64,000 nucleotides of DNA, taken from positions 1,302,001 through 1,366,000 of the forward strand of contig NZ_CP047984.1 of NCBI RefSeq assembly GCF_009931655.1. The letters are read 5' to 3'. Positions 5,606 through 33,434 of this stretch are shown here, in pieces. The first letter of the stretch is position 1; each line of letters starts with the position of its first letter. This DNA is from Pontibacter russatus. GTDB lineage: Bacteria; Bacteroidota; Bacteroidia; Cytophagales; Hymenobacteraceae. The translations under genes and the position numbers were made by a program. Below the pieces are notes generated by a model, which worked only from the letters and a program-made list of their open reading frames with translations, made no database searches and was not told the origin of the DNA.

Positions 5606-5636
5606 TTGAATCTAAGGGAATAAAGGCTTAATTTCG
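5606..5636 (+). promoter_or_regulatory. Candidate Bacteroidota -33/-7 promoter for sucC
   Basis: A TTG at 5606-5608 is separated by 20 bp from TAATTTCG (5629-5636), close to the Bacteroidota consensus TTTG-N19-21-TAnnTTTG. Transcription would then begin a few bases after 5640, which supports the ATG at 5660 over the upstream GTG at 5636 as the sucC start. Confidence 0.35.
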
Positions 5637-5659
5637 TGGCATCCATTAAAACTGAGAGC

Positions 5660-6856
5660 ATGAACATACACGAATATCAGGCTAAAGAGATTTTAAAAGG
5701 TTACGGCGTGCGCATCCAGGAAGGCATCGTGGCTGAAACGCCAGACCAGGCCGTGAAAGCTGCCATGAAGCTGACCGAGGAAACCGGCACCAGCTGGCAC
5801 GTGATCAAGGCGCAGATACACGCGGGCGGCCGTGGCAAAGGCGGCGGCGTGAAACTGGCCAAAAACCTGGATCAGGTGAAGCAGATTGCGGACCAGATAC
5901 TGGGCATGACGCTGGTAACGCACCAGACGGGGCCTGAGGGAAAGCTAGTGCAGAAAGTGCTGGTGGCGCAGGATGTGTACTACCCCGGCGAGTCGGAGCC
6001 GAAGGAATTTTACCTGAGCATTCTGCTGGACCGTGCCAAAGGCCAGAACGTGATCATGGCCTCTACCGAAGGCGGTATGGACATTGAAGAAGTGGCCGAG
6101 AAGACGCCGGAGAAAATCATCAAGGAGTGGATCGACCCTGCCGTGGGCCTTAGGCCGTTTCAGGCCAGCAAAATTGCTTTTGCTTTTGGGCTGCAGGGAC
6201 AGGCGTTTAAGGAGATGGTGAAATTCATCACCAACCTGTACAAGGCCTATGTGGAGACGGACTCCTCTATGTTCGAGATCAACCCTGTGCTGAAGACTTC
6301 GGATAACAAAATACTGGCGGTAGACGCCAAAGTGGACCTGGACGACAATGCCCTGTTCCGCCACAAGGACCTGGCCGCCCTGCGCGACACGTCGGAGGAA
6401 GATCCGTTGGAGGTGGAGGCGAGCGCGTCGAACCTGAACTATGTGAAGCTGGACGGCAACGTGGGCTGCATGGTGAACGGCGCCGGACTGGCCATGGCCA
6501 CGATGGACATCATCAAGCTTTCCGGCGGCGAGCCCGCTAACTTCCTGGACGTAGGGGGCGGGGCCAACGCGCAGACCGTGGAGGCTGGTTTCCGCATCAT
6601 CCTCAAAGACCCGAACGTGAAAGCCATCCTGATCAACATCTTCGGGGGCATCGTGCGTTGCGACCGCGTGGCCAACGGCGTGGTAGAGGCTTACAAAAAC
6701 ATCGGCGACATCCGGGTTCCGATCATCGTGCGCCTGCAGGGCACCAACGCCGAAGAAGGCGCCCGCATCATCGATGAGTCCGGCCTGAAAGTATACTCGG
6801 CCGTCGCGCTGAAAGAGGCCGCTGAGAAAGTAAAGCAGGTGTTGGCGGAGGTTTAA
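5660..6856 (+). CDS. sucC: Succinate-CoA ligase (ADP-forming) subunit beta
   Basis: Beta subunit of succinyl-CoA synthetase in the TCA cycle; it binds nucleotide and, with SucD, converts succinyl-CoA and ADP/Pi to succinate, CoA and ATP. From ATG 5660 the protein starts [10 protein letters not shown], the canonical family start, and is 398 residues long. It shows the ATP-grasp segment [14 protein letters not shown], the acidic metal-binding segments MFEINPV and [12 protein letters not shown], and the C-terminal ligase part with [10 protein letters not shown]. An in-frame GTG at 5636 would add eight residues but lies in the predicted promoter. sucD is not next to it; a strong terminator follows directly. 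Confidence 0.95.
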
Positions 6857-6870
6857 ACTCCCAGCACTTA

Positions 6871-6921
6871 TATATAAACAGCGCGGGCGGCCATATAGGG
6901 GCCGCCCGCGCTGTTTATATA
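6871..6921 (+). terminator. Long perfect hairpin terminator after sucC
   Basis: A 22-bp perfect inverted repeat (6871-6892 and 6900-6921) around a 7-nt loop lies 15 bp after the sucC stop. The inner stem is GC-only and the outer ends are TATATAAA/TTTATATA. It lacks a clean U-tract, so it may act in both directions. Confidence 0.7.
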
Positions 6922-7179
6922 TAGCTATATCCTCAGGCCGTAAAGTCGGGGCATTAGGGAATGGATGGGCAGGTTATTTCTGCTCTGTATAACCTCCTTG
7001 TTTTTCCACTTTTTGAAGCGCATGCTGCGCTGCCATTGCAGCCCCGGTATCACCCGAAAATATAGAAAATGGAGTAAACCACTGTGACTGAACAGCCTGC
7101 ACCAGGAAAGCCGGAAGGGATATAAAATTTACTCCCTAATGTTTTCTTTTATGCGCATACTTCCTATTTTTGCAGCACT

Positions 7180-7253
7180 GCACCCGTAGTTCAACTGGAT
7201 AGAATATCGGATTTCGGCTCCGAGGGTTAGGGGTTCGAATCCTCTCGGGTGCA
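7180..7253 (+). tRNA. tRNA-Arg(TCG)
   Basis: A complete 74-nt cloverleaf can be drawn: acceptor stem GCACCCG/CGGGTGC, a D-arm with GTTC, anticodon stem TCGGA/TCCGA around the loop TTTCGGC (anticodon TCG, reading CGA), T-arm with TTCGAAT, and discriminator A at 7253 (CCA not encoded). Its 3' half is the integration site of the adjoining element, and the gene stays intact because the element supplies the same sequence. The minus-strand frame across it is a known artefact type and not a gene. Confidence 0.95.
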
Positions 7254-7255
7254 CA
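7225..7255 (+). repeat. Left attachment site (attL core), 31-bp direct repeat
   Basis: Bases 7225-7255, spanning the variable loop, T-arm, acceptor 3' strand and two further bases of tRNA-Arg, are repeated exactly at 33404-33434. The direct repeat brackets the integrase and all AT-rich genes, as expected for tRNA-targeted site-specific integration. Confidence 0.93.
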
Positions 7256-7263
7256 ATTGATTG

Positions 7264-7301
7264 AAAACGCCTTGTAAATCGATTTTGCAAGGCGTTTTTT
7301 A
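7264..7301 (+). terminator. Rho-independent terminator just inside the left end
   Basis: An 11-bp stem (7264-7274 with 7288-7298) and a run of Ts follow the tRNA. It lies inside the element and so now serves as terminator for tRNA-Arg, replacing the original hairpin that sits beyond the right attachment site. Confidence 0.8.
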
Positions 7302-7341
7302 TTGTTTTAGGCGGGATTCTTAACAACGTCGGAGCAAAAAC

Positions 7342-7361
7342 TTGTGAACTGTCCGTGACCT
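7342..7361 (+). repeat. Left arm-type motif
   Basis: TTGTGAACT-N4-GTGACCT lies between attL and the integrase. The same two half-motifs, with a 5-nt spacer, occur at 33340-33360 just inside the right end and in the same orientation. Such conserved subterminal motifs are typical of integrase arm-binding or excisionase sites; the role is inferred. Confidence 0.55.
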
Positions 7362-7388
7362 ATTTTCAATTCTAAATATTAGGTCACG
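7354..7388. promoter_or_regulatory. 9-bp inverted repeat upstream of the integrase
   Basis: CGTGACCTA (7354-7362) is repeated in inverted form as TAGGTCACG (7380-7388) with a 17-bp AT-rich spacer. It overlaps the left arm motif and ends 84 bp before the integrase start, so it could be an operator or an integrase/excisionase site. Confidence 0.45.
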
Positions 7389-7472
7389 AATAGCTAGATA
7401 AACAACTGATCAACATCTTACTGCAAGCAAGATTCTTTAAGTAAAAGTGGTCTTCATTTAACAGGAAGAACC

Positions 7473-8741
7473 ATGAAAAACACACAATCATTTTCGGTAC
7501 TAGCCATCCTAAGGAAAGCCAAACTCAACAAATCAGGCGAAGCCCCTATTTACATCAGAGTCACGGTCAATGGGGAAATTGTTGAGCTCTCTTTAAAGCA
7601 TAACCTAGCCCCTTCTCTATGGGATAGTGCCAAAGGTAGAGCAAAAGGCAGAACAGAAGTTGCCAAAAGTATCAATTCTGACATTGAGGCTTACTCTGTC
7701 AAAGCAAGAACAGTTTACAACAACCTTGTACTAGAAAGCAAAACAGTCACTTCCAACATAGTAAAAAGACACGTGTTAGGTGACAAGACTAACTCGCCTA
7801 CCCTACTTTCTGTCTTTGATAAAATGGTATCGGACATTCGTGCGTTGATTGGCAAGGACTACACGGAGAGCACATACAAGAATTATTTGGCCTCACAACG
7901 CCAGCTCCACAAGTATGTTTCAACTCAATACAAGGTAAAAGATATTAGCTTAAACGATCTTGACTACAGGTTCATAGCGGATTATGAAATGTATCTCAAA
8001 ACCTTGGGAGGTTGCACGCAGAACGGCTGTATCAAGCACATGCAGAAGCTACGAAAGGCCGTCACTATTGCCCTCCAGCATGACTATTTCAGCAAAGACC
8101 CGTTCCTGCGCTACTCCATCAAAAAGAAGAAAACAGAGGTGCAGCCTTTAACTAAACATGAACTTCAGGCACTAGAAGCTCGTAATTTTGAAGTTCAAAG
8201 GCTGAATATCATCAAAGATTTATTTCTTTTCTCTTGCTACACTGGCTTGGCCTTTGCGGATGTTTCCTCTCTCCGTAGTGAGAACATTGGCTTGGGCATT
8301 GACGGGAGCGAGTGGATATTCATCAACCGCAAGAAGACAGGGAATGTATGTAGAATCCCGTTACTTGCCCCAGCTAAGGCTATTTTGATAAAGTATCAGC
8401 ATCACCCAAAAGTAGTGGAATCGGGCAACTTGCTTCCGCTCCCCTCAAACCAGAAATATAATGCCTACCTTAAAGAGGTGGCTGACCTTTGCAGTATCTC
8501 TAAAAACCTCACGACACACATCGGCAGGCACACGTTCGCCACAACCGTGGCACTTCAAAACGGCGTGTCTATGGAGGTTGTAAAAGAAATCTTAGGGCAT
8601 AACAATATTACTACCACCCAAATTTATGCAAAGGTAAATGATGACTTAATTGCAACAGCGGTACAGCCACTGAAGGAAAAGCTCTTTAGTGCGGAAAGCT
8701 ACAGGTTTACTAGAAATATAAACCTCACAACAACCCGTTAA
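7473..8741 (+). CDS. Tyrosine site-specific integrase, Bacteroidota type
   Basis: Integrase of 422 residues expected to catalyse insertion into and excision from tRNA-Arg. It has an N-terminal arm-binding domain (about 1-110), a SAM-like core-binding domain (about 110-215) and a C-terminal catalytic domain. Catalytic residues visible are Lys287/288, His349 and Arg352 (HIGRH), His376 (LGH) and Tyr385 (QIYAKV). The first catalytic Arg is Ala260 (TGLAFADV), a replacement at the same position as in the CTnDOT integrase IntDOT and common in Bacteroidota integrases. The gene is adjacent to attL, and the ATG at 7473 begins the usual MKNTQSFSVLAILRK start. Confidence 0.95.
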   Translation: MKNTQSFSVLAILRKAKLNKSGEAPIYIRVTVNGEIVELSLKHNLAPSLWDSAKGRAKGRTEVAKSINSDIEAYSVKARTVYNNLVLESKTVTSNIVKRHVLGDKTNSPTLLSVFDKMVSDIRALIGKDYTESTYKNYLASQRQLHKYVSTQYKVKDISLNDLDYRFIADYEMYLKTLGGCTQNGCIKHMQKLRKAVTIALQHDYFSKDPFLRYSIKKKKTEVQPLTKHELQALEARNFEVQRLNIIKDLFLFSCYTGLAFADVSSLRSENIGLGIDGSEWIFINRKKTGNVCRIPLLAPAKAILIKYQHHPKVVESGNLLPLPSNQKYNAYLKEVADLCSISKNLTTHIGRHTFATTVALQNGVSMEVVKEILGHNNITTTQIYAKVNDDLIATAVQPLKEKLFSAESYRFTRNINLTTTR

Positions 8742-15821: not shown

Positions 15822-17468
15822 ATGACTAAAAAAAACGAAATTATCAATGCAATCCGAGAGTTCCTAATCAAGGAAGGTTTATACATGTACCTAACACAGA
15901 GAGCAGACACGGTTATCTATCCAGCTCATGCCGATATTGACTTAGCCATATACGAAGAGCCTGATGCATACAACAGAGACGCACTTAAGCTCCTGTTAGA
16001 CTCGCTTCTAAAAGCAATGGCTAACTATCCTGAGCATTTCACTAAGGATGGTTACGCCCCTTTACACGTCATAGCTGCGACCGCCTTTATCCCAAACCAC
16101 AGGCAACTCCTTGACTATTTGGTCATGCGGGGAGTACTCGAGAGAGTAGAAGTGGCTGTTGGAGAAGGCGGATTAGAATATGCTTACAGGTTCTCCCCTG
16201 CTTATGAAACTTCAAGGCTAAAGGAAGAACGACTGGAATCCGCTGCCGTGATTGAGGCAGCCGTTAGTGTTTGCCTCGGCAACTTATCAGGGCTGCTTCA
16301 TCGTCCCGAACTTTCCAAGTTTTATTTAGACGGGGGACTGGAAATAGATGAATCCAAGGCAATCCAAGCATTTCAGGACTATTATGTATCTCCTATATAT
16401 CCAGACGACCCTACACCATACAGGCTCAATGTAAGCAATAACGTAGGCCAGCTCCTCATCTATGAACTCAAAAGCAAGCAATGGCGCTTTGAGTTTAACC
16501 GTGAAACGGGGTTCCTGCGCACGACCCTAAGCCACCTATCACAGTTCCCGATGCTCAAACCCTCTATCACCTATGGGGGGCACAGACTTGTTGAGATAGA
16601 AGTGTTGGACAGCAAAATCATCATGCTCATAGCCTTGTTAGACTACAGCTTCTGGGGGTTTGAGTCTGGATTCGCTCAGTTTCTACACTTCGTCTCTGGT
16701 TCAACCACTAAGACCCTCGCACAGGCAACTGAACACCTTTCTCCAGAAGATGAGTTAACAATGTCATACAACGAATACATTGAACGCGGAGGCATAGCGG
16801 AAGACCCTGTACACGCCAAGCCAACCAAGAGCCAGAATCTGTTCTTAGGAGAAATGGAAGGAGGCGACATTTACCTGAACACTCTCTACGCCACCTCTAT
16901 TACACCTTTACAGGCTGAGACTCTAATTTCTTTGTTCAGGCTGGGGAGAAGCAGGGTGCAGAACAAAGACTTCTACAGATTAAGGAAACTTGTATCAGCC
17001 CCAGACACGGTAAATGATATATTGAAGTTGCTTCCATTAGAGGATGCGGAAGCATTGCTTGATACAGATGAATTTCACTTTTTTTTCGACAAAGTCCTTT
17101 TTGACAAAAACTATGCCCATGGAGACAGATTCATGAAGCTGCGCGCTGCCTTCAAAAACAGGTTCCCTGCAATATTTGTATTCACTGAGTGGCTAAACAA
17201 AAAAGATACGAACTTGCTTTCGAATCTTTTAAACAGAATGGAAGCTCATTTCTTGGTGGAGAGGGTTTGCAAGGTGTTAATGGTGAAAGATGAAACCGTA
17301 CCATTTTTCCCGATTATGAGCAGGACTGGTAAGTACTCACTTTTAACTGTAAAAGGAGCCGAAGACATAGTAATGGAATTGGTTCGTAAAGAGATACGGA
17401 AAATTTCTACTGTTGATGATTTTCTTCGATGCGCAGAACCTTGGGAAGAAGGTCATCAGTTGACTTAG
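15822..17468 (+). CDS. Paralogue of the element's polymerase-like protein with altered catalytic motifs
   Basis: The 548-residue protein is not a known named family, but it aligns along its length with the 27651-29243 product. Matching blocks are LLDYLVMRGVLE (96-107) with YLNYLIDAGVL; SITYGGHRLVEIEV (248-261) with FVTYGGAPLACIDI; FKNRFPAIFVFTEWL (444-458) with FAKQYPTVMKFYNLL; NRMEAHFLVERVCKVL (471-486) with QRIEAHVMLNVICKTI; and VPFFPIM (493-499) with VPIYTIH. The putative catalytic positions differ: Asp253 is Glu260 here, the R-x3-K-x7-YG motif is not recognisable, and His-Asp-Ser is Met-Ser-Arg (499-501). It is therefore probably a non-catalytic relative. Base composition is closer to the backbone than its AT-rich surroundings. 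Confidence 0.75.
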   Translation: MTKKNEIINAIREFLIKEGLYMYLTQRADTVIYPAHADIDLAIYEEPDAYNRDALKLLLDSLLKAMANYPEHFTKDGYAPLHVIAATAFIPNHRQLLDYLVMRGVLERVEVAVGEGGLEYAYRFSPAYETSRLKEERLESAAVIEAAVSVCLGNLSGLLHRPELSKFYLDGGLEIDESKAIQAFQDYYVSPIYPDDPTPYRLNVSNNVGQLLIYELKSKQWRFEFNRETGFLRTTLSHLSQFPMLKPSITYGGHRLVEIEVLDSKIIMLIALLDYSFWGFESGFAQFLHFVSGSTTKTLAQATEHLSPEDELTMSYNEYIERGGIAEDPVHAKPTKSQNLFLGEMEGGDIYLNTLYATSITPLQAETLISLFRLGRSRVQNKDFYRLRKLVSAPDTVNDILKLLPLEDAEALLDTDEFHFFFDKVLFDKNYAHGDRFMKLRAAFKNRFPAIFVFTEWLNKKDTNLLSNLLNRMEAHFLVERVCKVLMVKDETVPFFPIMSRTGKYSLLTVKGAEDIVMELVRKEIRKISTVDDFLRCAEPWEEGHQLT

Positions 17469-19997: not shown

Positions 19998-20474
19998 ATG
20001 TTGAAAGAAACGGTACTACAGAACAGGGACAGGAGCGTGTTCGGCAAGGCCTTCTTTGTGGACGGTCACGAAGATTTGGAGCTGCCGCTGTTCGGCAGCA
20101 AGATAGCGGCGGGCTTCCCCTCCCCTGCGACGGACTACATCGAGGAAACCATCAACCTGAACAGGCACCTGATAAAGAACCCCGCCTCCACTTTCTTTAT
20201 CAGGGTAATGGGCGAGTCCATGCAGGACGCTTACATTCGCAACACAGACCTGCTGGTGATTGACAAGTCCCTGAAGGCAAGGGACGGTTCGGCGGTGGTG
20301 TGCTGGCTGGAGGGCGAGTTCACGGTGAAGACTTACAAGCCAGCGGGCAACAAGCTTTACCTGTTGCCTGCTAACCCAAAGTACAAGGCTATAGAGTTGA
20401 CTGAAGGGATGGACTTCGTGTTCATGGGGGTGGTGACCTACTCCATCCACGACTGCCTGAAGAACCAGCTATGA
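19998..20474 (+). CDS. umuD: UmuD-like S24 peptidase, subunit of an error-prone polymerase
   Basis: LexA/UmuD-type autoprotease that, once cleaved with RecA filament help, joins UmuC to form a translesion polymerase. The predicted cleavage site is Ala38-Gly39 (IAAGFPSP). The catalytic dyad is Ser74 (MGESM) and Lys111 (FTVKTY). The 158-residue length is slightly longer than E. coli UmuD. Its stop overlaps the umuC start by 4 bp. Confidence 0.93.
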   Translation: MLKETVLQNRDRSVFGKAFFVDGHEDLELPLFGSKIAAGFPSPATDYIEETINLNRHLIKNPASTFFIRVMGESMQDAYIRNTDLLVIDKSLKARDGSAVVCWLEGEFTVKTYKPAGNKLYLLPANPKYKAIELTEGMDFVFMGVVTYSIHDCLKNQL

Positions 20475-21730
20475 TAGCGCTTGTGGATTGCAACTCCTTC
20501 TATGCTTCCTGTGAGTGCGTTTTTAATCCTGCCATAAGGGATAAACCAGTTATTGTTTTGAGCAACAACGACGGGTGCACGATAGCCCGTTCACAGCAGG
20601 CCAAAGATGTAGGGGTGAAAATGGGAGACCCTGCCTTTATGCTGAAGGACTTGATTAAGAAGCACAGCATAAAGGTTTTCAGCTCCAACTATACCCTCTA
20701 CGGTGACATGAGCCGCCGTGTGATGCAGACGCTGGCGGGCTTCACACCTAACCTTGAAGTGTACAGCATAGACGAATCCTTTCTGGATTTGGGGCACTTC
20801 TACAAGAAAGACCTGCACCAATACGCGTGGCAGATAAAGAACACGGTGCAGGAATGGACAGGTATACCCGTAGGCATCGGTGTGGCGAAGACAAAGACGC
20901 TGGCAAAGATTGCCAACCGCATTGCAAAGAAAAGCCCCAAGGCAAAGGGCGTTCTGGTGCTTCAGGAACAGCGGCACATAGAGGCGGCGCTTAAACGGAC
21001 AGAGGTAGGTGACGTTTGGGGCATCGGCAGGCAGCACAGCAAGCTCCTGCAAAAGCATGGCATCACAACCGCCTACGAACTGGCGCAGCAACATGATGCG
21101 TGGGTGAAGAAACACCTGACAATTGTTGGCCTGCGGATGGTAAAGGAGCTGCGCGGGGAGCCGTGCCTGGAACTGGAGGAAGTAGCTCCAAAGAAGCAGA
21201 ACATATGCACTTCCCGCTCCTTTGGAAGCCCTGTAACGAAGCTTCAGGAGCTGGAGGAGGCAACGGCCACCTACGCCTCCAAGTGCGCCTATAAGCTGCG
21301 TAAACAAGGCTCCTGCGCCTCTGCCGTGACCGTATTTGTGATGACGAACAGGTTTGCCAATACCCCGCAGTACTACAACTCCAAAACCATTCACGTGCCC
21401 AACCCCGTCAACAGTGACCTGCACCTTATCCAGTACGCGAACATGGCGCTAAGGAGCATTTACGAGGAAGGGTACAGCTACAAGAAGTGCGGCGTGATTG
21501 TCTCCGACTTCATGCCTGAAGACAACCTGCAACTTGGCTTGTTTGATGTTGCCGATACAGGCAAGCACAAAGACCTCATGAAGGCGTTGGACAACCTAAA
21601 TAGCCGCTACGGGATGGCAACTGTTAAAGCGGCGGCACAGGGCATCAAGAATAACTGGACGCTGAAGCGGGAAAGGCTTTCGCCTTGCTATACGACGAGG
21701 TTAAGTGACGTGCTGGTGGCGAGACTATAA
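20471..21730 (+). CDS. umuC: UmuC-like Y-family DNA polymerase
   Basis: Catalytic subunit of a DNA polymerase V-type translesion enzyme. Motifs are MIALVDCNSFYASCE with the first metal-binding Asp, LSNNDGCTIARS, the catalytic YSIDESFLDL segment, the GIGVAKTKTLAKIANR thumb region, a helix-hairpin-helix (GDVWGIGRQ) and the C-terminal little-finger domain. The 419-residue length is normal. It forms an operon with umuD (ATGA overlap). On a mobile island it could raise mutation rate of the host under DNA damage. Confidence 0.95.
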   Translation: MIALVDCNSFYASCECVFNPAIRDKPVIVLSNNDGCTIARSQQAKDVGVKMGDPAFMLKDLIKKHSIKVFSSNYTLYGDMSRRVMQTLAGFTPNLEVYSIDESFLDLGHFYKKDLHQYAWQIKNTVQEWTGIPVGIGVAKTKTLAKIANRIAKKSPKAKGVLVLQEQRHIEAALKRTEVGDVWGIGRQHSKLLQKHGITTAYELAQQHDAWVKKHLTIVGLRMVKELRGEPCLELEEVAPKKQNICTSRSFGSPVTKLQELEEATATYASKCAYKLRKQGSCASAVTVFVMTNRFANTPQYYNSKTIHVPNPVNSDLHLIQYANMALRSIYEEGYSYKKCGVIVSDFMPEDNLQLGLFDVADTGKHKDLMKALDNLNSRYGMATVKAAAQGIKNNWTLKRERLSPCYTTRLSDVLVARL

Positions 21731-21845: not shown

Positions 21846-23612
21846 ATGGATACAATAAGGCACGATATCAAGATTTACCAAATCGACATAGACTTCCATG
21901 AAATTAGAGAAATAGATTCTCTTATGGAGAAAATCTATTTTATAGTCGATAAACATAAAAACTCAATCCTTGATGTAAATAAAAAGGCATCTGAACTTCC
22001 TACGACAACTATTGATAGTATTCAATATTTGTTATATACCTATAATCAAAGGGAGAAAGAGTCTTCTTGGAGGTCCTTTCTTCCTTCAGCCATAGTTACA
22101 GATGAAGATTTTAATGTGCAGACTACCTCATTTGTTCTGTTTGCTATACTTAATCGAAGAATATTTGCTACAATTGGAGGCAACGGAATAACTGTTATAA
22201 AGCGATACTTAAACCAGACATTTGGTCTTGACCTATATGAGAAAATTTCCGAGCCAGAAAATGATATTGTTAACTCTATTGAGTCACGAGGAGTAGCAGG
22301 CAATATGACTTCTCAAATTGTTACCTATAGGAGTGAACAAAAACTTATAGATTCTCTTTCCTTCGGCCGTATACCGCATCGGCTCAATTTTCAACTACGA
22401 GACACTTTATTGGCAGATGTTTTTGACTTTATCAAATTTGATGGTGCCGAAAAGGTCTGTGTCCAAGTTGGCACTTCCTTTCATATCAAATGGAAGCTTT
22501 CCTTCAAGGAAATGCATCAACTAATCCAGCAAATCGATAAAATTTTAGATACAACAGCCCATACACCTATAAGCAGCTTTGTCAGGATTGGAGACAGAAA
22601 TTTAACTGAAAATAATTTAAGGTTTGCTTTATACAACAGGGTAAGGGATGATATGGTTAGGGCATTTGAACCTCAAAACAACAGGTATGGTGCAAGACTA
22701 GACTATGATTTTGTTCACCCTTCCAAGTTACAAGCCTTTTATGAGTGCGATAAATATGCTCTTTATGAGAGAGGTGCTCAGCAGCCATTCTTTGAAACTT
22801 TCGATAGACACGCACTTTATCATGCAGGGCTAACCTTTTTATATAATAATACAGACCGCACAAATCCTATTGATTTCAATAGCAAAATATCAGGAATAAG
22901 AGTGTGCGGGTATGTTAACCGTCTAAAGAAAACAAATGCAATGTTTGCCCACCATGTCACATGTGAGATTGAGTTCAACAAAAAACCTACTTTTCACATC
23001 GACTCGCACTGGTATACAATTAAAGGGAATTTTATAGAAGACATCAACACCCTTTGCAGTAAGTCAATAAAAAATAACTATCTAAATTCTAGTGTTAACC
23101 TGCAAGTATGGGGTGATAGCATCAAGGACGAAGGGCAATATAACATGCTATACCATGGTCTCCCAAACTATTTGGTACTAGATAAGATGTTGGGCCAAAA
23201 TATTGAGCTATGCGACATCCTCTACGAAGATGACTCTAGTGTTTATCTTATTCATGTAAAACAAGGCTTTGATGCAAAAATTCGAGATTTAACAAATCAA
23301 GTTATAATCTCCGCTAATAGGCTATGGAATGACCTGAAGTCAGGAGCATTTACTTTTATTGACGAAGTTTGTGAAAGATATAACAACTCAATAGCTGCCG
23401 ACCAAAAAATTGATTTACACAAATTTAGGATGGTATTTAAAAAGGACATAATTTATGTTATGGCATTTAATTCTCACTTAAGAGGGAAAAGAATAAGAGA
23501 CGACATTAGCATTGCACGCTCGAACATAGCAAAATTTTCCCTTATCCACAGTTTTCGCGACATGCCATCAAATCTATATCCTTTAAAGGTCGTTGAGATA
23601 GATAATGAATAA
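21846..23612 (+). CDS. TIGR04141/DUF6119-like sporadic protein, possible nuclease
   Basis: The 588-residue protein resembles the sporadically distributed TIGR04141 (DUF6119) family. In its C-terminal third ELCDILYEDDSSVYLIHVK (about 473-491) has the D...E-D-x(n)-I-H-V-K layout typical of that family and reminiscent of PD-(D/E)xK nucleases; the downstream part ANRLWNDLKSG also fits. The N-terminal two thirds have no recognised domain. The family is often found in defence islands, with function not established. It is followed 124 bp later by an abortive-infection-type gene, and both are AT-rich. Confidence 0.55.
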   Translation: MDTIRHDIKIYQIDIDFHEIREIDSLMEKIYFIVDKHKNSILDVNKKASELPTTTIDSIQYLLYTYNQREKESSWRSFLPSAIVTDEDFNVQTTSFVLFAILNRRIFATIGGNGITVIKRYLNQTFGLDLYEKISEPENDIVNSIESRGVAGNMTSQIVTYRSEQKLIDSLSFGRIPHRLNFQLRDTLLADVFDFIKFDGAEKVCVQVGTSFHIKWKLSFKEMHQLIQQIDKILDTTAHTPISSFVRIGDRNLTENNLRFALYNRVRDDMVRAFEPQNNRYGARLDYDFVHPSKLQAFYECDKYALYERGAQQPFFETFDRHALYHAGLTFLYNNTDRTNPIDFNSKISGIRVCGYVNRLKKTNAMFAHHVTCEIEFNKKPTFHIDSHWYTIKGNFIEDINTLCSKSIKNNYLNSSVNLQVWGDSIKDEGQYNMLYHGLPNYLVLDKMLGQNIELCDILYEDDSSVYLIHVKQGFDAKIRDLTNQVIISANRLWNDLKSGAFTFIDEVCERYNNSIAADQKIDLHKFRMVFKKDIIYVMAFNSHLRGKRIRDDISIARSNIAKFSLIHSFRDMPSNLYPLKVVEIDNE

Positions 23613-23736: not shown

Positions 23737-24429
23737 ATGAGCTCAGAGAAGAACATAAGCGAGTTAGCTAGTGGAATTAGTGGCATAGCAGATAGGGCCT
23801 TTGATTTTGTAGAAAAAATAATAGCTGGTCCAATCATTGAAGGAACAGGTGCAATTACAGATAAAATCAAGTTTTGGAGGTTCAAAAATCAGGTTAATAC
23901 AATACTTAAAGCTCAAGAGTTTCTAAAAGAGAAAGGTATCAAAACCCCTAAAAAATTACCCGTGAAAGATGTAACCACTCTGTTGGAATATGCATCGTTT
24001 GAAGAAGATGAAAACATGCAAAATAAATGGGCCTGTCTGCTAGCAAATGCTGCTGACCCAAATAACCCCTTCGATATATGTTATATATTTAGCCAAGTTT
24101 TAAATCAGCTTTCACCTCATGAGGCTAAACTTCTTGACTATATGTTTTCACGTTCCTTCTTGATGACAGACAGAGACAGGCCTTATTTTGAAAAAGATGA
24201 TATAATAAGAAGAAACTTTGCTTCCTATGAAGTGACCTTGCTGATTTTTGATAATTTACTTAGACTAAGACTAATTGAGGAGAAGCCTCCAAAACTCCAA
24301 GATAATAGTAGATACCATTATAGATATGATGAAGACGAAGCTATACCTGAACATGAAATTGTACCAAGTAATAGCGTTCGTTTGTCAGAATTTGGCGCAG
24401 AATTTACAAGAAAAACCCATTTATTATAG
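23737..24429 (+). CDS. Abi-alpha (DUF4393) family protein
   Basis: The 230-residue protein carries the family pattern FWRFKNQVNTILKAQEFL, followed by LLEYASFEEDENMQNKWA, CLLANAAD and later LSPHEAKLLDYMF. The N-terminus (IADRAFDFVEKIIAGPIIEGTGAITDKI) is a long amphipathic or membrane-associated helix, as usual in Abi_alpha proteins, named for a role in phage abortive infection. It probably forms a unit with the TIGR04141-like gene just upstream. Mechanism is unknown. Confidence 0.78.
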   Translation: MSSEKNISELASGISGIADRAFDFVEKIIAGPIIEGTGAITDKIKFWRFKNQVNTILKAQEFLKEKGIKTPKKLPVKDVTTLLEYASFEEDENMQNKWACLLANAADPNNPFDICYIFSQVLNQLSPHEAKLLDYMFSRSFLMTDRDRPYFEKDDIIRRNFASYEVTLLIFDNLLRLRLIEEKPPKLQDNSRYHYRYDEDEAIPEHEIVPSNSVRLSEFGAEFTRKTHLL

Positions 24430-25073: not shown

Positions 25074-25760
25074 ATGGGAAATAGACTTTATCCTAGTTGG
25101 GAGCAGTTAGATAGTTTAAATAATCCATTAACTGAAGGTGAACGACATTTACTTTTGTTTCTCGATACAAATTTACCTAAAGATAAATTTTGGACAAAAG
25201 AAAAGAAACTGACAGACTACAATGGGTGGTTAATCTTTGCACAACCTTTTCTAAATGGGAGCAGACCAGATATTCTCATATTCAACCCGTTTGTTGGTGT
25301 AGTCATATATGAAGTGAAAGATTGGAATCTTGAAAATTATAAATGGGATAAGGACCATTATGGCAGTACCAGTCTCTTTGTTCATGATAAGAGAAGCAGA
25401 TATGCAGTTAAAAGCCCTATCAGGCAAGTTGAGCATTATAAAGAGAAAATAATAAGCCAGTTAGTCCCTATTATTGGAGAGCTAATTGATAAAGACAAAA
25501 GGAGTTATGGATTGATAAAAACCGCATTATACTTCCATAAAGTAAACACAAATGATGCTCAAGATTTTTTTGGTGCGAGAATTAAAGATTTTAAACATTT
25601 TCCTGTTTTCGGGTATGATAGTCTTCACTATTCAAAATTAAATGAAATTGTTCCTGATATTCATATAAGTAGAAGTAACTATTGGGATAGAAAATGGAAT
25701 GAAGAACTCATATTTTGGTTTAACCCCCCTACCACAGCATCGAACAGGGCATACTTTTAA
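25074..25760 (+). CDS. NERD-domain nuclease (N-terminal part of a split NERD-helicase)
   Basis: The 228-residue product has the NERD nuclease pattern: EGERHLLLFL (E22/E23), SRPDILIF with Asp66, and VVIYEVKDW with Glu80 and Lys82, the restriction-like D...E-x-K core. Its last in-frame codons (FNPPTT) are followed by TASNRAYF and a stop. Re-reading with a -1 shift at the six-C run 25724-25729 continues as PPYHSIEQG into the helicase frame without a stop. The usual family member is one NERD-UvrD polypeptide, so this is most likely its N-terminal part, either a frameshift mutant or a programmed-shift gene. Confidence 0.8.
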   Translation: MGNRLYPSWEQLDSLNNPLTEGERHLLLFLDTNLPKDKFWTKEKKLTDYNGWLIFAQPFLNGSRPDILIFNPFVGVVIYEVKDWNLENYKWDKDHYGSTSLFVHDKRSRYAVKSPIRQVEHYKEKIISQLVPIIGELIDKDKRSYGLIKTALYFHKVNTNDAQDFFGARIKDFKHFPVFGYDSLHYSKLNEIVPDIHISRSNYWDRKWNEELIFWFNPPTTASNRAYF

Positions 25761-25762
25761 CT

Positions 25763-26962
25763 TTGAAGGGCAACCAGTTGAAAGTAGCGGAACCTAAATC
25801 AGGACACCAAAGGGTTAGGGGAGTAGCAGGCAGTGGTAAAACTCAGGCCTTGGCATTTAGAGCAGGAAAGTTAGCTTCCAATAATCTAAATGTTTTAATC
25901 ATTTCTTTCAATATAACACTTTGGCATTATATAAAAGACATGATAGCGCGTTCTCCCTTTAGTTTCAAATGGGATAGAATTACGTTTGCCCATTTTCACG
26001 GCTTTTGTAAAGATAAGTTGAATGAGTTCGGGAGAAAATGGCCCGTTTCACCGAGACGCAATCAATTTACATCTCAAGAAGAATATGAAGATGCCTTGGA
26101 GCTCTTTTTCAAGGTAACTGTTCCAGAGGCAGTTGTGGATGCAATTGGTGCTAACAGCTATGCAAAGTATGATGCGATTTTAGTTGACGAAGGGCAAGAC
26201 TATCATTATGAATGGTATAAGCTATTGAATGAGAAGTTTTTAACTTCTCGAGATGAATTTCTTGTAGTTTGTGACAAGAAGCAAAATATTTATGACAGAG
26301 AACTTGATTGGGTTGATAAGCGGGTTAATAGGATTGGGCTTGAAAAGTTCAAAGACCCTTATGTTGATTTAACTTCATCTTACCGTATGCCGCAGAGAGT
26401 AGCTGAAATGTCTAACGAGTTCAGCGAAATTTTCGAATTAAACCAAGAATTAAAAGTTTCTAAAATTGAAGGTGGTGCCGTGCTATTTCATTCGCAGCAT
26501 ATAATTTGGCTTAACATAGATGAAACTCAATGGTTAGAATTTATTTATAATTCATTTTTAAGGCTTAAAAGAGAATCATACAATCCTTCAGACATGGTAA
26601 TTCTTCTACCTAATCATAAATATGGAATGGAGTGTGTCAAATTCTTTATGGGAAAGAATATAGAAGTAAACCATGTATTTGAAGATGACTCGGAGGCAAC
26701 TTATCATCCACACAAGAAAGCCTTTTGGATGGGAGACAGCCGCTTAAAAATGTCTACAATACACAGCTTCAAAGGTTGGGAGTTATTAAATATAGTGTTA
26801 TATATACCAGAAAATTCACCAGATAGTAACAAGAAACTTGACGCTATTGTCTATACAGCTATCACCAGAACAAGAGAAAACCTAATAGTTTTCAATGCCA
26901 ACAAAAGATATGCAAAGTTTGGAACAAAATTTCCCAAAAAGTGGCATGAACAAATTGTTTAA
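25763..26962 (+). CDS. UvrD/Rep-like superfamily 1 helicase (C-terminal part of a split NERD-helicase)
   Basis: The 399-residue frame has Walker A GVAGSGKT (about 20-27), SFN motif Ia, the DEGQD Walker B (VDEGQDYHYEW), a motif III-like VCDKKQNIYD, SSYRMP (motif IV), STIHSFKGWE (motif V) and YTAITRTRENL (motif VI), so all helicase motifs are intact. It is shorter than UvrD, as expected for NERD-linked helicases. The only starts are a TTG at 25763 or the shifted continuation of the NERD frame. Likely role: phage or plasmid DNA processing by a nuclease-helicase pair (inference). Confidence 0.82.
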   Translation: MKGNQLKVAEPKSGHQRVRGVAGSGKTQALAFRAGKLASNNLNVLIISFNITLWHYIKDMIARSPFSFKWDRITFAHFHGFCKDKLNEFGRKWPVSPRRNQFTSQEEYEDALELFFKVTVPEAVVDAIGANSYAKYDAILVDEGQDYHYEWYKLLNEKFLTSRDEFLVVCDKKQNIYDRELDWVDKRVNRIGLEKFKDPYVDLTSSYRMPQRVAEMSNEFSEIFELNQELKVSKIEGGAVLFHSQHIIWLNIDETQWLEFIYNSFLRLKRESYNPSDMVILLPNHKYGMECVKFFMGKNIEVNHVFEDDSEATYHPHKKAFWMGDSRLKMSTIHSFKGWELLNIVLYIPENSPDSNKKLDAIVYTAITRTRENLIVFNANKRYAKFGTKFPKKWHEQIV

Positions 26963-27269: not shown

Positions 27270-27539
27270 TGGGCACAGCAGCTTAACCGTCAGATTGTGT
27301 ACAGCTCCAACATACTACACAAACTCCTGCCCCATTACCTGCTTTTAGCACAGTTGACTTTCTTCTATTATTAAGAGACTATCATGAATGGTGAATAGCG
27401 GCAAGCCTAGCAGTTCGTTCTTCAATCGTTCACATAACTTATACAGAAGGAAGTCATATTTTATAGACTGCAAATGGCAGGACAAGGGCACATAAACCTC
27501 CTGTAGCTGAAACCCTATATAGTGACTTTTAAATCTCAT
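27270..27539 (-). pseudogene. Second C-terminal remnant of the polymerase-like family
   Basis: The minus frame encodes LGLPLFTIHDSLLIIEE, clearly related to GVPIYTIHDSIVTT of the intact protein and retaining the His-Asp-Ser motif. After a stop, a continuing stretch gives GQEFV, a stop, then YVGAVHNLTVKL, matching EQELYRMVGVQPCLDVEF. No start or N-terminal domains remain. It lies immediately downstream of the intact gene in the same orientation. Confidence 0.8.
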
Positions 27540-27650
27540 TACAAGCCATTTAAATTCCCTTTAAGAGCATTTATACCTTTACCTTGAGCCTCGCCTTCTG
27601 AAGCACTTATATGCTTTATAACGGCTTATTTTGGCTCAAATCATACTCGC

Positions 27651-29243
27651 CTAAAGTGTAGTTAACACAGCCTCAGGAATCCAAAATTCTACATCCAAGC
27701 AGGGTTGTACACCTACCATTCTGTACAGTTCCTGCTCCATCACTTCCTTAACGAAATCTACATTTGCCACGGTTGTAACAATCGAATCATGAATAGTGTA
27801 AATGGGCACACCAGGCTTTTTGCCCGCAATGGTCTTGCAAATAACATTAAGCATCACATGCGCCTCTATCCGCTGAAGCAGGTAAACCATGTTCTTGTAG
27901 TCTTCCGCCTTCAGGAGGTTATAGAATTTCATCACAGTAGGGTACTGCTTAGCAAAGAACCTATAGAACGGATGCGTGGCAGGGTGGTTAATGCCATAAA
28001 CTTCACCATATGCCACCATGCAGTAAAGTTTTTTTATATCTCCCCTTGTGTGGTTACCACCTATTTCCCTGTTGTAATTGTCACGTAAATTGTCATAGAA
28101 AGTACCCCCTGATATATCCCTAAAATATTGCTCTACGTCACTGTAAAGCCCCTTTTCACCCTCTCTTACAATGTCTTTTACTAGCATTATGAGAGAAGAC
28201 ATTGAAGAGAGACATTGAAAGAAAGACATGTAACCAGAACTATAGAAAGAGATATTGTTAAGAGAGAGTACATTTACATTAGAACATATAGAAGAGACAT
28301 TAAAACGTCCTTCTACAATGTCCTTTACCCCAATATCATTTACATCAATACCATTAACACCTATATCATTAACAAGGCTATTAATAAATTTTTTGTCCGC
28401 CGCCGATACGCCCTTTTTGAGGTTGAACTTGTAAAAGTTCGGGTTAAAAAACAGCAAACTCAAATACGGCTGGCAGTTCTTTATGTCAATGCACGCCAAA
28501 GGTGCCCCGCCGTAGGTGACAAAGTTCCTAAGCTCCTTTTTCAGGTTCGTAAGCGGCGTGTGCAGCCTTCCCGCCACATCATCCAGCTTAAAGAAAAGCT
28601 CCCTTTCCTTGTCGTAAAGGTGCTCAACGGTGAGTGAGTGCGCATTATACTTCACCATGTTCTCTGTCCGCCTGTCCATTAAGTCAAACTCGTCTTCAGG
28701 GGGCGGGGGATTCTCAGGGTACATGTTTGACAGCCACTCCAGCGCGCCCTCCCTGTCAATGTTTAGCTTTCCCCGCTTCCACCAGTTCCACAGGTTTTTG
28801 TGCTTGTCTTTTGCAGTGTCGTTTTCAGGAGGCGTTTTTGAGAGCTTCTTTATAAGCTTTTCATCTGTTAGCAATACCTCTTTAGTGCGGCACATGTACC
28901 TGTGGCTGAACCAGTATGCTTTAGAGGCATACTTAGGGGTGTAGTACGGCTCGCACTGCAGCACTCCCGCATCTATTAAATAATTTAAGTACTTGTCGTA
29001 GTGCCTTACCTTGCGCTGGATGGTTTGAGCGTGGATGGGCACCTTGCCATCCACACTTACCTTGTCTCCGCCATACGCTTGAATATGCGTTACCTGTCCG
29101 AGAATGTATAGCAGTTCATCTTTTTTGAAGTCTGGTACACTATCAGGTGGCCGCTTTTCAATCAGCCTCTCCACGTCCAGCTTCTCAGGAATATAAACTT
29201 TCACTGCCATTATGTAATTTATCATTCGTTGTTGCTGCACCAT
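27651..29243 (-). CDS. Polymerase-like protein with family A DNA polymerase / T7-type RNA polymerase motifs (novel family)
   Basis: The 530-residue protein has no name that I recognise. Three blocks match the single-subunit polymerase core: ACIDIKNCQPYLSLL with Asp253 (motif A); R400-x3-K404-x7-Y412-G413 (RGDIKKLYCMVAYG, motif B, with the exact residue spacing of Pol I and T7 RNA polymerase); and YTIHDSIVTT with His485-Asp486-Ser487 (motif C; DNA polymerases have HDE, T7-type RNA polymerases HDS). Residues 1-115 look like winged-helix DNA binding (LNYLIDAGVL). A 49-residue low-complexity block (307-355) lies between motifs A and B. ATG 29210 (MAVKVYIPE) is an alternative start. It could be the element's replication or transcription enzyme; activity is inferred. 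Confidence 0.7.
   Translation of the reverse strand: MVQQQRMINYIMAVKVYIPEKLDVERLIEKRPPDSVPDFKKDELLYILGQVTHIQAYGGDKVSVDGKVPIHAQTIQRKVRHYDKYLNYLIDAGVLQCEPYYTPKYASKAYWFSHRYMCRTKEVLLTDEKLIKKLSKTPPENDTAKDKHKNLWNWWKRGKLNIDREGALEWLSNMYPENPPPPEDEFDLMDRRTENMVKYNAHSLTVEHLYDKERELFFKLDDVAGRLHTPLTNLKKELRNFVTYGGAPLACIDIKNCQPYLSLLFFNPNFYKFNLKKGVSAADKKFINSLVNDIGVNGIDVNDIGVKDIVEGRFNVSSICSNVNVLSLNNISFYSSGYMSFFQCLSSMSSLIMLVKDIVREGEKGLYSDVEQYFRDISGGTFYDNLRDNYNREIGGNHTRGDIKKLYCMVAYGEVYGINHPATHPFYRFFAKQYPTVMKFYNLLKAEDYKNMVYLLQRIEAHVMLNVICKTIAGKKPGVPIYTIHDSIVTTVANVDFVKEVMEQELYRMVGVQPCLDVEFWIPEAVLTTL
28167..28328 (-). repeat. In-frame insertion flanked by a 15-bp direct repeat, with microrepeats
   Basis: TACAATGTCTTTTAC (28167-28181) and TACAATGTCCTTTAC (28314-28328) are direct repeats 147 bp apart, exactly 49 codons. 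Both encode VKDIV in the polymerase-like protein. The enclosed DNA is full of AGAGACATT-type microrepeats, and just outside it VNDIGV is encoded twice. This points to expansion by slippage or duplication. Confidence 0.7.
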
Positions 29244-29337: not shown

Positions 29338-29700
29338 CTAATTATCTCCGCTAATTTGTCCCACTACAGTTCTAATCTCTGAACGTAGGTATACATATCC
29401 ATTACAGCTATGCAGTCTGTTTGGTGTTAATATGCGTTTCCTAAAAAGCCCGTTGATGGTTGCTTTTTTCAGGTCAGGATTCAAATGCTGTATATAAGCA
29501 ATGGCTTCTGGCCTTGATAACGGGCGTTCTGTTATGTCATCAGGTTCTATGACTCTTGTGGGAACCCAGAATAGCATCCCTTTGGGGATTCCATAGCCGC
29601 TAACATAGTCTCTTCTATAGACAATGTATGTCGGGTTATCAGCAAAATACTGTAAGATTTCATCATAACTCCTACCTGTAAATATGTTATCCATCTTCAT
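29338..29700 (-). CDS. Hypothetical protein, 120 aa
   Basis: Small basic protein starting MKMDNIFTGRSYDEIL. Segments PLSRPEAIAYIQHLNPDLKK, TINGLFRKRILTP and the ending NGYVYLRSEIRTVV look like a winged-helix or excisionase-type DNA-binding fold, but no family is recognised. It lies 94 bp upstream of the polymerase-like gene on the same strand, together with the 29801 regulator, so the three may be one replication/control unit. Confidence 0.55.
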   Translation of the reverse strand: MKMDNIFTGRSYDEILQYFADNPTYIVYRRDYVSGYGIPKGMLFWVPTRVIEPDDITERPLSRPEAIAYIQHLNPDLKKATINGLFRKRILTPNRLHSCNGYVYLRSEIRTVVGQISGDN

Positions 29701-29800: not shown

Positions 29801-30058
29801 CTAATTGCTCCGTCCAGTAATAATGACGCCCCATACTCTCCTACTGGTTGGTTTTATCAAGCGCAAGTCAACCATTCTCCTTAACACCGCTCTTGAATAG
29901 CCAATGTAAATGCAGGCTTCATCAGCAGTATAAATTCTTTTAGGTTCTAACTGCTTGGCTTTCTCAGCTTTGGTTAATTTTTTAGCCAATGCGGCTTTAC
30001 TGGCTACAGGATAAGGAAAAGGCGTTTGTGCGGTTGTATTAAAGCTGATATTGTTCAT
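29801..30058 (-). CDS. Excisionase-like helix-turn-helix protein, 85 aa
   Basis: From ATG 30058 (MNNISFNTTAQ) the protein is 85 residues with a Lys-rich middle and a C-terminal helix-turn-helix: IYTADEACIYIGYSRAVLRR then MVDLRLIKPTSRRVWG. This is the layout of MerR/Xis-type proteins (helix, turn, helix, beta hairpin wing). The upstream frame continues to 30196, but that part is AT-derived and lacks a plausible start. It may direct element excision or regulate the adjacent polymerase-like gene. Confidence 0.6.
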   Translation of the reverse strand: MNNISFNTTAQTPFPYPVASKAALAKKLTKAEKAKQLEPKRIYTADEACIYIGYSRAVLRRMVDLRLIKPTSRRVWGVIITGRSN

Positions 30059-30710
30059 TGTTCTTAGATGAATTAGAATATTTTGTAAATACTTATTTAG
30101 AATTGAAAGACTTGGAAGATGCCTTTTGACGTAACAAAGTGTAGTTAATTTAATTAGGTTGGATAAGTACAATCTCGCGCTAAATTGATACTGCAAATGT
30201 ATACGCTTTGAAACATAATATGCAAGACTTAATCAAAATTATTTTTAGATATCAAATAAATTTAATACAATATCAAACCTGCATTAATTGCTTGTTTGCT
30301 ATTTGCAAACATTAATAATTACATTCACCGACCAAAAAAACTACAAGTTACATCAAGCTAAGTACGGTACAATTCTAACCCTACTTACTTGATTCGAAAC
30401 GAACTACATGTGAATAGGCAATATTAAAGCACTAATAAAGATATAGCTACATTAAGAGAGGGGTGAATACCCCACATTTATACAGCATTATAAAGCGCAA
30501 TTACAAGAAAGGGTATTAGATTTATATGAAGGGAGTAATATATAATAGAAACAGCAAAAAGGCATTTTGTAAGTGTTATTAAGTACTTTTGAAGGCATGA
30601 GGAAGTCATTGGAATTATTATATAATTTATTCTTTCGGGCAAAACGTGTCTCCCCCCACCGCTCATAAAAGAAACACCTTAACGCGTCCTGCCTTACATT
30701 TATACCATTT
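30059..30710. other. AT-rich gene-free region
   Basis: About 650 bp, mostly AT-rich, with frames that are short and of unlikely composition (for example 30478-30666 on the minus strand). No repeat or RNA can be recognised; the promoter of the excisionase-like gene should lie at its left side. Confidence 0.4.
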
Positions 30711-30989: not shown

Positions 30990-32078
30990 ATGAAAAAGTA
31001 CATAGCCTACTACCGCGTATCAACACAGAAGCAGGGCACTTCAGGACTTGGGCTGGAGGCACAGAAAGCAGCCGTAGCTGGCTTTGTGGCTGGTGCTCCA
31101 GTGCTGGCAGAGTACGTGGAAGTGGAAAGCGGCAAGAAAGACAACAGGCCAGAGCTGGAGAAAGCCATAGCGCACGCAAAGCAGGCAGGAGCCACGCTTA
31201 TCATTGCAATGCTTGACCGCCTTAGCCGCAACGCTGGTTTCATCTTTGCCTTGCGGGATTCAAAAGTAGACTTCATTTGCGCCGATATGCCAGACGCAAA
31301 CACCCTGACAATAGGCATATTTGCGGTTATGGCACAGCACGAACGGGAGCTGATAAGCAAGCGCACAAAGGACGCATTGGCCGCTAAGAAGGCACGCGGC
31401 GAGGAAGTAGGCAACAGGGCTAACCTGACACAAAAAGGCCGTCAGAAGGGCGCAAAAGCCCGTCAAACGGCGGCTATGCAGGACAAGGCGAATAAGAACG
31501 CCCTGAATTGGGCGCTGGAGTGCAAGGCGAAGAAAGGCGAAGAAAAAATGACACTACAACAGATAGCCGATAAGCTGAACAGCATGGATTTAACCACCAG
31601 CACAGGGGCACAGTTCAGGGCAATGAGCGTGAAGCGCCTGCTTGACCGCCACGACAAGCTACAAAAGGAGCAGGAAGACTTTAAATTTAAAATTAAGCAA
31701 GCGGAAAAATTTGCCCTGCACCTGAAAGCGGTAAACCTGAAGGTCAGGATTGACGAAGGTTTGGTGTACTTTGAACCTGACACCAAGCACACGGAACCTT
31801 GGCCGTTTACATCTTTGCTTTTCCAGCAAGTGATTGACAAAGGCGCAGTGCTGGAGTACATAGACGGATACTATGCCCTGTATGCAGACCGCAGCAAAAG
31901 GGAAAAACTTTCGGGCGGGAGCAGCTTCATTTCCTTGCTTGGTATACTGGCAGATTATATATTTCGCATAAACATGCAAAAGGAGCATGAGGCAAGCCTG
32001 CATCCTGACTTAATCTACATCAGCAAAGGCAATCCAGAAAAGAAGCAGCCGCCTTTTGTTTTAAGCACAGTCCTTTAG
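30990..32078 (+). CDS. Serine recombinase (resolvase/invertase family)
   Basis: The 362-residue protein starts MKKYIAYYRVSTQKQ with the nucleophile Ser11 and the nearby Arg9. It continues with GLEAQ, MLDRLSRN (catalytic Arg) and the E-helix region MAQHERELISKRTKDAL, all of the resolvase N-terminal domain (1-145). A short recombinase-type region (LTQKGRQKGAKARQT, MTLQQIADKLN) and a coiled, charged C-terminal extension follow. A zinc ribbon is not present, so it is smaller than large phage integrases. It provides a second recombination function in the element besides the tyrosine integrase. Confidence 0.9.
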   Translation: MKKYIAYYRVSTQKQGTSGLGLEAQKAAVAGFVAGAPVLAEYVEVESGKKDNRPELEKAIAHAKQAGATLIIAMLDRLSRNAGFIFALRDSKVDFICADMPDANTLTIGIFAVMAQHERELISKRTKDALAAKKARGEEVGNRANLTQKGRQKGAKARQTAAMQDKANKNALNWALECKAKKGEEKMTLQQIADKLNSMDLTTSTGAQFRAMSVKRLLDRHDKLQKEQEDFKFKIKQAEKFALHLKAVNLKVRIDEGLVYFEPDTKHTEPWPFTSLLFQQVIDKGAVLEYIDGYYALYADRSKREKLSGGSSFISLLGILADYIFRINMQKEHEASLHPDLIYISKGNPEKKQPPFVLSTVL

Positions 32079-33403: not shown

Positions 33404-33434
33404 GGTTAGGGGTTCGAATCCTCTCGGGTGCACA
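33404..33434 (+). repeat. Right attachment site (attR core), 31-bp direct repeat
   Basis: Exact copy of 7225-7255, i.e. the 3' end of tRNA-Arg from the variable loop to two bases after the discriminator. It is followed by the hairpin that must have terminated the tRNA before integration. A minus-strand frame over it is an artefact of tRNA sequence. Confidence 0.93.

Follow-up and report, generated by a model that had tools for sequence, protein, structure and literature searches.

A gene in the 64,000-nucleotide stretch of Pontibacter russatus DNA that was analysed (the window) most likely encodes a member of TV-Pol, a polymerase family described in 2008 (Iyer, Abhiman and Aravind; PMC2579912), as judged from sequence comparison. 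The gene (27651..29243, minus strand, running from the ATG at 29243 down to 27651) specifies a protein of 530 residues, hereafter P0001, with an N-terminal winged helix in the predicted model (residues 13-140) and a match to the family A polymerase domain (about residues 142-526). We consider it probable that P0001, as a TV-Pol-type member of the family A/T7 RNA polymerase superfamily carried in a tRNA-integrated island, copies the excised island and may also prime it.

The three polymerase motifs that the initial annotation had assigned to the protein were all found at the residues given there in the minus-strand reading frame: motif A has D253 within CIDIKNCQPYL, motif B reads R400-x3-K404-x7-Y412-G413, and motif C is I484-H485-D486-S487, with D253 and D486 as the presumed metal ligands. 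The strict order and spacing (D...R-x3-K-x7-YG...HDS) occurred in none of 20,000 shuffles of P0001, and a looser pattern (with [YF] and HD[SE]) in 6 of 20,000. A weak match to phrog_4756, an entry without functional annotation, was obtained in the PHROG scan (E 2.4e-4). Pfam RNA_pol and PF00476 did not match P0001 at E 10 (as a control, PF00476 was found in 23 of 25 genomes of the class). In a comparison over 495 codons with the nearest relative that was found (43% identity), dN was 0.53 and dS 2.4, the latter being near saturation.

Relatives were searched at several levels. P0001 as query matched 67 of the 200 genomes searched in the family of its host (E 1e-3); with a profile at E 1e-5, 22 of 295 genomes were matched at class level and 15 of 395 at phylum level. 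The contig scan confirmed 105 relatives, of which 80 were retained, and the titles listed for these were of Bacteroidota (Hymenobacter, Pontibacter, Rufibacter, Flavobacteriaceae, Bacteroidales and others) and two Chlorobiota metagenome-assembled genomes. Polymerase relatives were also present at 19 loci of viral contigs, in six INPHARED records of uncultured phages (595-735 kb) and in one Hymenobacter plasmid of PLSDB; when P0001 by itself or the PolA-like L186 was the query, the viral scans gave no relatives. In the rows listed for three of the viral contigs (L150, L159 and L160; 271-348 kb), no member of the integrase cluster appeared.

Conservation was evaluated on 132 full-length relatives selected from 175 ORFs (matches starting at model position 40 or lower and ending at position 480 or higher, identical proteins being counted once). 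All seven of R226, D253, Q258, K404, E460, H485 and D486 were kept in 127 of the 132, and three of the five relatives without the full set were changed at H485 and/or Q258 only. By site, the counts were R226 130, D253 130, Q258 129, R400 114, K404 130, E460 132, H485 127, D486 130 and S487 116. Position 412 was F or Y in 131 relatives (F in 90, Y in 41), and G413 was poorly kept (G in 12). An acidic residue (D or E) stood at position 369 in 107 and at position 384 in 108 relatives; the text of PMC2579912 gives no position for the fingers Asp of TV-Pols.

Structure prediction was performed with AlphaFold2 (30 alignment rows), and the model of P0001 (pLDDT 81.2, pTM 0.81) has the polymerase-domain fold that is canonical for Pol I: with VIA-align it superposed on the apicoplast polymerase apPol (9qu8) over 274 residues, within 143-526 of the model, at Z 15.4 and an rmsd of 3.5 Å, and the best 50 matches listed were all family A DNA polymerases. 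A family A DNA polymerase was also the best PDB match with Foldseek (E 6.7e-6). In the viral structure library, the best matches were proteins of 409 and 403 residues (TM by target 0.83 and 0.70), the latter named as a putative DNA polymerase I, and a Zamilon virophage protein was also among the matches (E 2.2e-3). The model superposes on polymerase palms, the part of the fold on which the initial annotation had made its assignment depend. Neither an intact nor a vestigial 3'-5' exonuclease domain was found in P0001, as examined with Pfam and by modelling of the N-terminal 128 residues. When modelled alone, these residues (13-140) formed a winged helix with beta strands (pLDDT 90.5), of which the best matches were entries titled DNA-binding protein, initiator or Rep (4pql, Z 7.0, 92 residues, 3.2 Å), which we take to be plasmid RepA_N initiators. 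These matches were generic, the top Z of 7.0 being tied with ORC2 and Fur, and only the fold class is therefore secure.

Profile comparison was performed with HHalign. Against 49 polymerase domains of PolA and T7-type DNA polymerases (25 of 79 T7-type DNA polymerases, one phage-like PolA and trimmed PolA polymerase parts), the family gave E 3.6e-5 and Prob 71%; an earlier comparison with full-length Bacteroidota PolA had given Prob 0.5%, and the rise followed the trimming and the additions. An integrase control gave Prob 0.4%. In the alignment, motif B and the Q..E and HD regions were in order and motif A was two residues off, with SQ of DYSQ set opposite CQ of NCQP and not Asp opposite Asp, so that the residue of P0001 in the place of Pol I Glu710 is uncertain; at D+5, P0001 has Gln (Q258), and Glu710 had no match. 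Together with the fold, this profile match supports the placement in the Pol I/T7 RNA polymerase superfamily that had been made from the motifs.

The closest likeness in terms of family was to TV-Pols. These were described as minimal polymerases of superfamily A, found in mobile elements and viruses and 400-600 residues long, which have no nucleases and are marked by two Asp, a hairpin Arg, RxxxK and a conserved fingers Asp, and whose genes adjoin those for lambda-type integrases, resolvases or transposases (PMC2579912). The core features were present in P0001 (R226 as the hairpin Arg, D253 and D486, R400 and K404 of RxxxK, and the superfamily A fold), as were the size (530 residues), the lack of any nuclease Pfam match and the mobile-element setting with integrase or recombinase genes nearby. 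For a direct comparison, 15 TV-Pol-type sequences were used, namely 13 proteins of the MAP_030 type of Microcystis phage Ma-LMM01 and proteins of a Polaromonas and a Calothrix plasmid (the Calothrix ORF being cut at the record end). Ma-LMM01 is named as a TV-Pol bearer in PMC2579912, and we infer that MAP_030 is the TV-Pol in question from its place beside two transposase genes and from its motifs (DVVKCH, LLQRIE, IHNS). MAP_030 was chosen by position and motifs; it was the top match, at an insignificant E of 0.12, among the ORFs of the first 50 kb, and a search of the complete Ma-LMM01 record with the family profile (A1) gave no match at E 10. The family matched the TV-Pol-type set at E 2.4e-5 and Prob 75%, the 369 aligned columns extending into the N-terminal region; single sequences of the set gave Prob 0.7-6.9% with the family, and the set gave Prob 2.1% with PolA. 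A signature of motif A, Q..E and HD, written after the family and the TV-Pols had been inspected, was carried by 121 of the 132 family members and by 12 of the 15 TV-Pol-type sequences, and by none of 23 PolA, 49 PolA/T7 DNA polymerases, 71 T7 RNA polymerases and 1491 other genes. On this profile match and shared signature, P0001 was filed as a TV-Pol. The initial annotation had suggested a possible new family; this was rejected, since P0001 fits the TV-Pols of 2008 in both the profile comparison (E 2.4e-5, 369 columns) and the three-motif signature.

The polymerase gene lies in an island of about 26.2 kb integrated at tRNA-Arg(tcg) (7180..7254, plus strand). The island is bounded by a 31-bp exact direct repeat, of which one copy (attL, 7225..7255, plus strand) is at the 3' end of the tRNA gene and the other (attR) is at 33404..33434 (plus strand), and its G+C content is mostly below that of the flanks. 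A tyrosine integrase gene (7473..8741, plus strand; Arm-DNA-bind_5, Phage_int_SAM_5, Phage_integrase) starts 219 bp from the tRNA gene. Near attR are the polymerase gene, two small genes upstream of it on the same strand, and a divergent serine recombinase gene (30990..32078, plus strand; Resolvase, E 5.3e-26); the small genes encode proteins of 120 residues (29338..29700, minus strand; no family match) and 131 residues (29801..30196, minus strand; a weak HTH_17 match at E 0.035, under the Pfam cut-off). Further genes are those for a NERD nuclease followed by a UvrD-like helicase (25074-26962), which resemble PADLOC C3a187 (NERD+UvrD) split over two ORFs, a UmuDC-like pair of S24 peptidase and Y-family (IMS; impB/mucB/samB) polymerase (19998-21730), an Abi_alpha protein (23737-24429) and a DUF6119 protein (21846-23612), the last two possibly being defence cargo, as well as PLDc and SRAP proteins. 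Among 29 loci of the genus, the tRNA-Arg gene was present in 27, 26 of which had an exact att core of 30-31 bp. With regard to an empty site, the right flank of the window was in none of the 29, which reached about 0.4-0.85 kb past the tRNA gene. In the relatives G117, G091 and G073, polymerases were located within about 4 kb of the same tRNA-Arg gene (by reading).

The surroundings of the polymerase were compared over 100 loci (the window and L064-L162) with genes from a simple ORF caller; many of the loci are from related Flavobacteriaceae, and the counts are therefore not independent. A tyrosine integrase cluster member was present at 66 loci, at 51 of them within four genes upstream of the polymerase, and an HTH_17 gene was within four genes upstream at 44; the exact order of integrase, HTH_17 and polymerase was counted by eye in 20 rows. 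A tRNA gene was within 600 bp of the integrase at 38 of the 66 integrase-bearing loci. Second att copies were visible in the window (26.2-kb span), L126 (12.2 kb) and L129 (11.2 kb), and in L114 at a distance of only 244 bp. In an alternative arrangement, AAA_24 and DUF3871 genes adjoined the polymerase. The window itself departs from the module, integrase and polymerase being some 19 kb apart there and the two small upstream genes falling outside the HTH_17 cluster of the relatives. In relatives, the polymerase was accompanied by integrase and HTH genes next to cargo that varied (restriction and methylase genes; metal-resistance genes, by reading of peptides), so that the polymerase looks like a part of the backbone and not of the cargo. 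Neighbour genes were scanned with Pfam for 110 of 256 listed (the list excluded genes of less than 100 residues, members of the polymerase, integrase, HTH_17 and tRNA-antisense clusters, and cluster repeats), and neither a D5 helicase nor an SSB appeared among the Pfam families listed for these 110 (25 out of 92). At L120, a protein of 726 residues is encoded directly upstream of the polymerase (5636-7813) with no Pfam match at E 0.01; a GVGATT sequence around its residue 100 might, by eye, be a P-loop, and the protein could be a helicase partner. The Hymenobacter and Polaromonas plasmids with relatives have Rep and ParA genes of their own, and the polymerase is thus not the sole replicator there. 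No account of a Bacteroidota tRNA-integrase-HTH-TV-Pol module was among the papers listed in the open-access literature search.

Most likely, P0001 is the island's own DNA polymerase and possibly its primase; we infer its priming, origin binding and choice of dNTPs. The island would excise as a circle, to which P0001 would be targeted by its winged helix with or without HTH partners; the polymerase core would copy this circle from dNTPs, with D253 and D486 serving in two-metal catalysis, and might also prime island DNA, and by such copying the island would be kept, amplified or re-inserted. Priming is proposed because a TV-Pol relative primes: CcPol of SCCmec, according to the available text of PMC7581432, is by itself confined to primer extension, whereas in complex with MP it primes, using dNTPs. 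The winged helix of P0001 may stand in for MP or supply DNA targeting. An element-encoded replicative or primer-making enzyme had been predicted in the initial annotation, and the island and module context supports it. Points that speak against a role in island replication are the departure of the window from the module, the lack of a prominent iteron-like origin among the repeats listed near the gene, the separate Rep of the plasmids with relatives, and the absence of D5 helicase and SSB from the neighbour families listed. A stronger form, in which one protein is the replicase, with an origin-reading winged helix and a self-priming polymerase working with integrase and HTH proteins and with dead copies serving as regulators or inhibitors, seems to us doubtful; if it were true, a minimal excise-and-replicate module would have spread through the tRNA genes of Bacteroidota.

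The alternative to be taken most seriously, although we consider it rather unlikely, is that P0001 is a primer-dependent accessory polymerase for gap filling, repair or translesion synthesis in the course of integration or defence, which neither primes nor initiates replication. The behaviour of CcPol without MP is in line with this, as are the Y-family polymerase and S24 peptidase genes of the same island and the repeats near the polymerase gene, where no iteron-like origin was prominent and only two-copy repeats were among those listed; however, DNA transactions specific to the island are suggested by the winged helix, which is fused and conserved, and by the operon-like arrangement of relatives with integrase and HTH genes. 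Transcription of the island by P0001 as a single-subunit RNA polymerase, with the N-terminal domain as promoter reader, is very improbable. Mitochondrial RNA polymerases do match the model in Foldseek (from E 8e-5), and the Ser of motif C (S487) is that of T7 RNA polymerase IHDS, which the initial annotation had read as an RNA-polymerase-type variant; that reading finds no support in the structural neighbours, since the best 50 listed are family A DNA polymerases. Moreover, P0001 has a bulky Gln at D+5, an alignment-uncertain position, where T7 RNA polymerase has Gly, and the characterised TV-Pol, CcPol, prefers dNTPs (PMC7581432, available text). The family gave Prob 1.8% with the T7 RNA polymerase profile, a comparison without power, as PolA itself gave 0.3%.

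The island also contains a full-length polymerase paralogue (15822..17468, plus strand; 548 residues, open frame) in which the catalytic positions are lost, six of the seven conserved residues being changed in the alignment (R226F, D253E, Q258K, K404H, H485M and D486S). At E 1e-10, none of the 49 further genomes of the genus had a match to it. A second such case without the site was found in Rufibacter latericius (L137:3992-5662), near a shortened polymerase copy. The paralogue in the island could be a regulator, an inhibitor or a product of decay. Directly downstream of P0001 is a remnant of the 3' end of a third polymerase gene (27345-27560, minus strand; LFTIHDSLLIIE), which includes a 64-residue ORF (27345..27539), keeps an intact IHDS and is perhaps a recombination scar. 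With one paralogue catalytically dead and with NERD+UvrD, Abi_alpha, PLDc and DUF6119 genes in the island, a polymerase core repurposed for anti-phage defence or another non-replicative role was also considered; relatives occur with integrase and HTH genes beside varied cargo, however, and we consider this role very unlikely. Finally, that the motifs arose by chance in an unrelated protein, as might be thought from the absence of any family match to P0001 in Pfam and NCBIfam scans even at E 10, is contradicted by the fold, the profile comparison and the conservation and is hardly conceivable.

In comparison with known systems, T7-like and mitochondrial RNA polymerases share the superfamily fold with P0001, and T7 RNA polymerase also has R-x3-K-x7-Y-G and IHDS, but their structural match is weaker than that of family A DNA polymerases, and they have no Pfam match to P0001. 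Bacterial Pol I (PolA1, PolA1-like, PolA2 and PolA3; PMC12926913, as far as available) shares the polymerase fold and motif order with P0001, which, unlike Pol I, lacks a PF00476 match and an exonuclease domain; the PolA section of that survey, in its available part, names no group like that of P0001. The CcPol-MP (PMC7581432) and Bacillota PolA-SSB (PMC10061031) primases, as described in the available parts of these papers, resemble P0001 in being family A polymerases of mobile elements with no 5'-3' nuclease and in being linked, as in its family, to a site-specific recombinase. CcPol uses a separate OB-fold partner, encoded adjacently, and a helicase, whereas P0001 has a fused winged helix. 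The genes next to that of P0001 encode proteins of 120 and 131 residues, one with the weak HTH_17 match. CcPol, compared here by description only, is stated to keep Pol I Glu710 in the same available text, whereas P0001 has Gln at D+5.

Thus, P0001 is most likely an enzyme of an already described kind, of the little-studied TV-Pol family. Primase and polymerase activity was predicted for TV-Pols (PMC2579912); in the available text of the 2020 paper (PMC7581432), no characterised member besides SCCmec CcPol was known, and one further SCC pair is cited as unpublished in that of the 2023 paper (PMC10061031). To these the present analysis adds 132 aligned members, mostly of Bacteroidota and many in environmental hosts, a confidently modelled winged-helix N-terminal domain, a recurring module of tRNA gene, integrase, HTH and polymerase, and dead paralogues. 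It makes testable whether a winged-helix-fused family A polymerase is able to prime when DnaG, AEP and a separate SSB partner are all absent, and by what means these tRNA islands are replicated. Bacteroidetes TV-Pols were listed in PMC2579912 from Cytophaga, Polaribacter, Flavobacteriales and Psychroflexus, and subsets of TV-Pols were described there with an extra N-terminal domain or with linkage to a D5-like helicase. That N-terminal domain was predicted to be all-helical, whereas that of P0001 was modelled as a winged helix with beta strands, so that the two could be the same or different domains. Features of the present family that do not occur in the main text of PMC2579912 are its linkage to tRNA genes, the accompanying HTH_17 gene and the catalytically dead paralogues.
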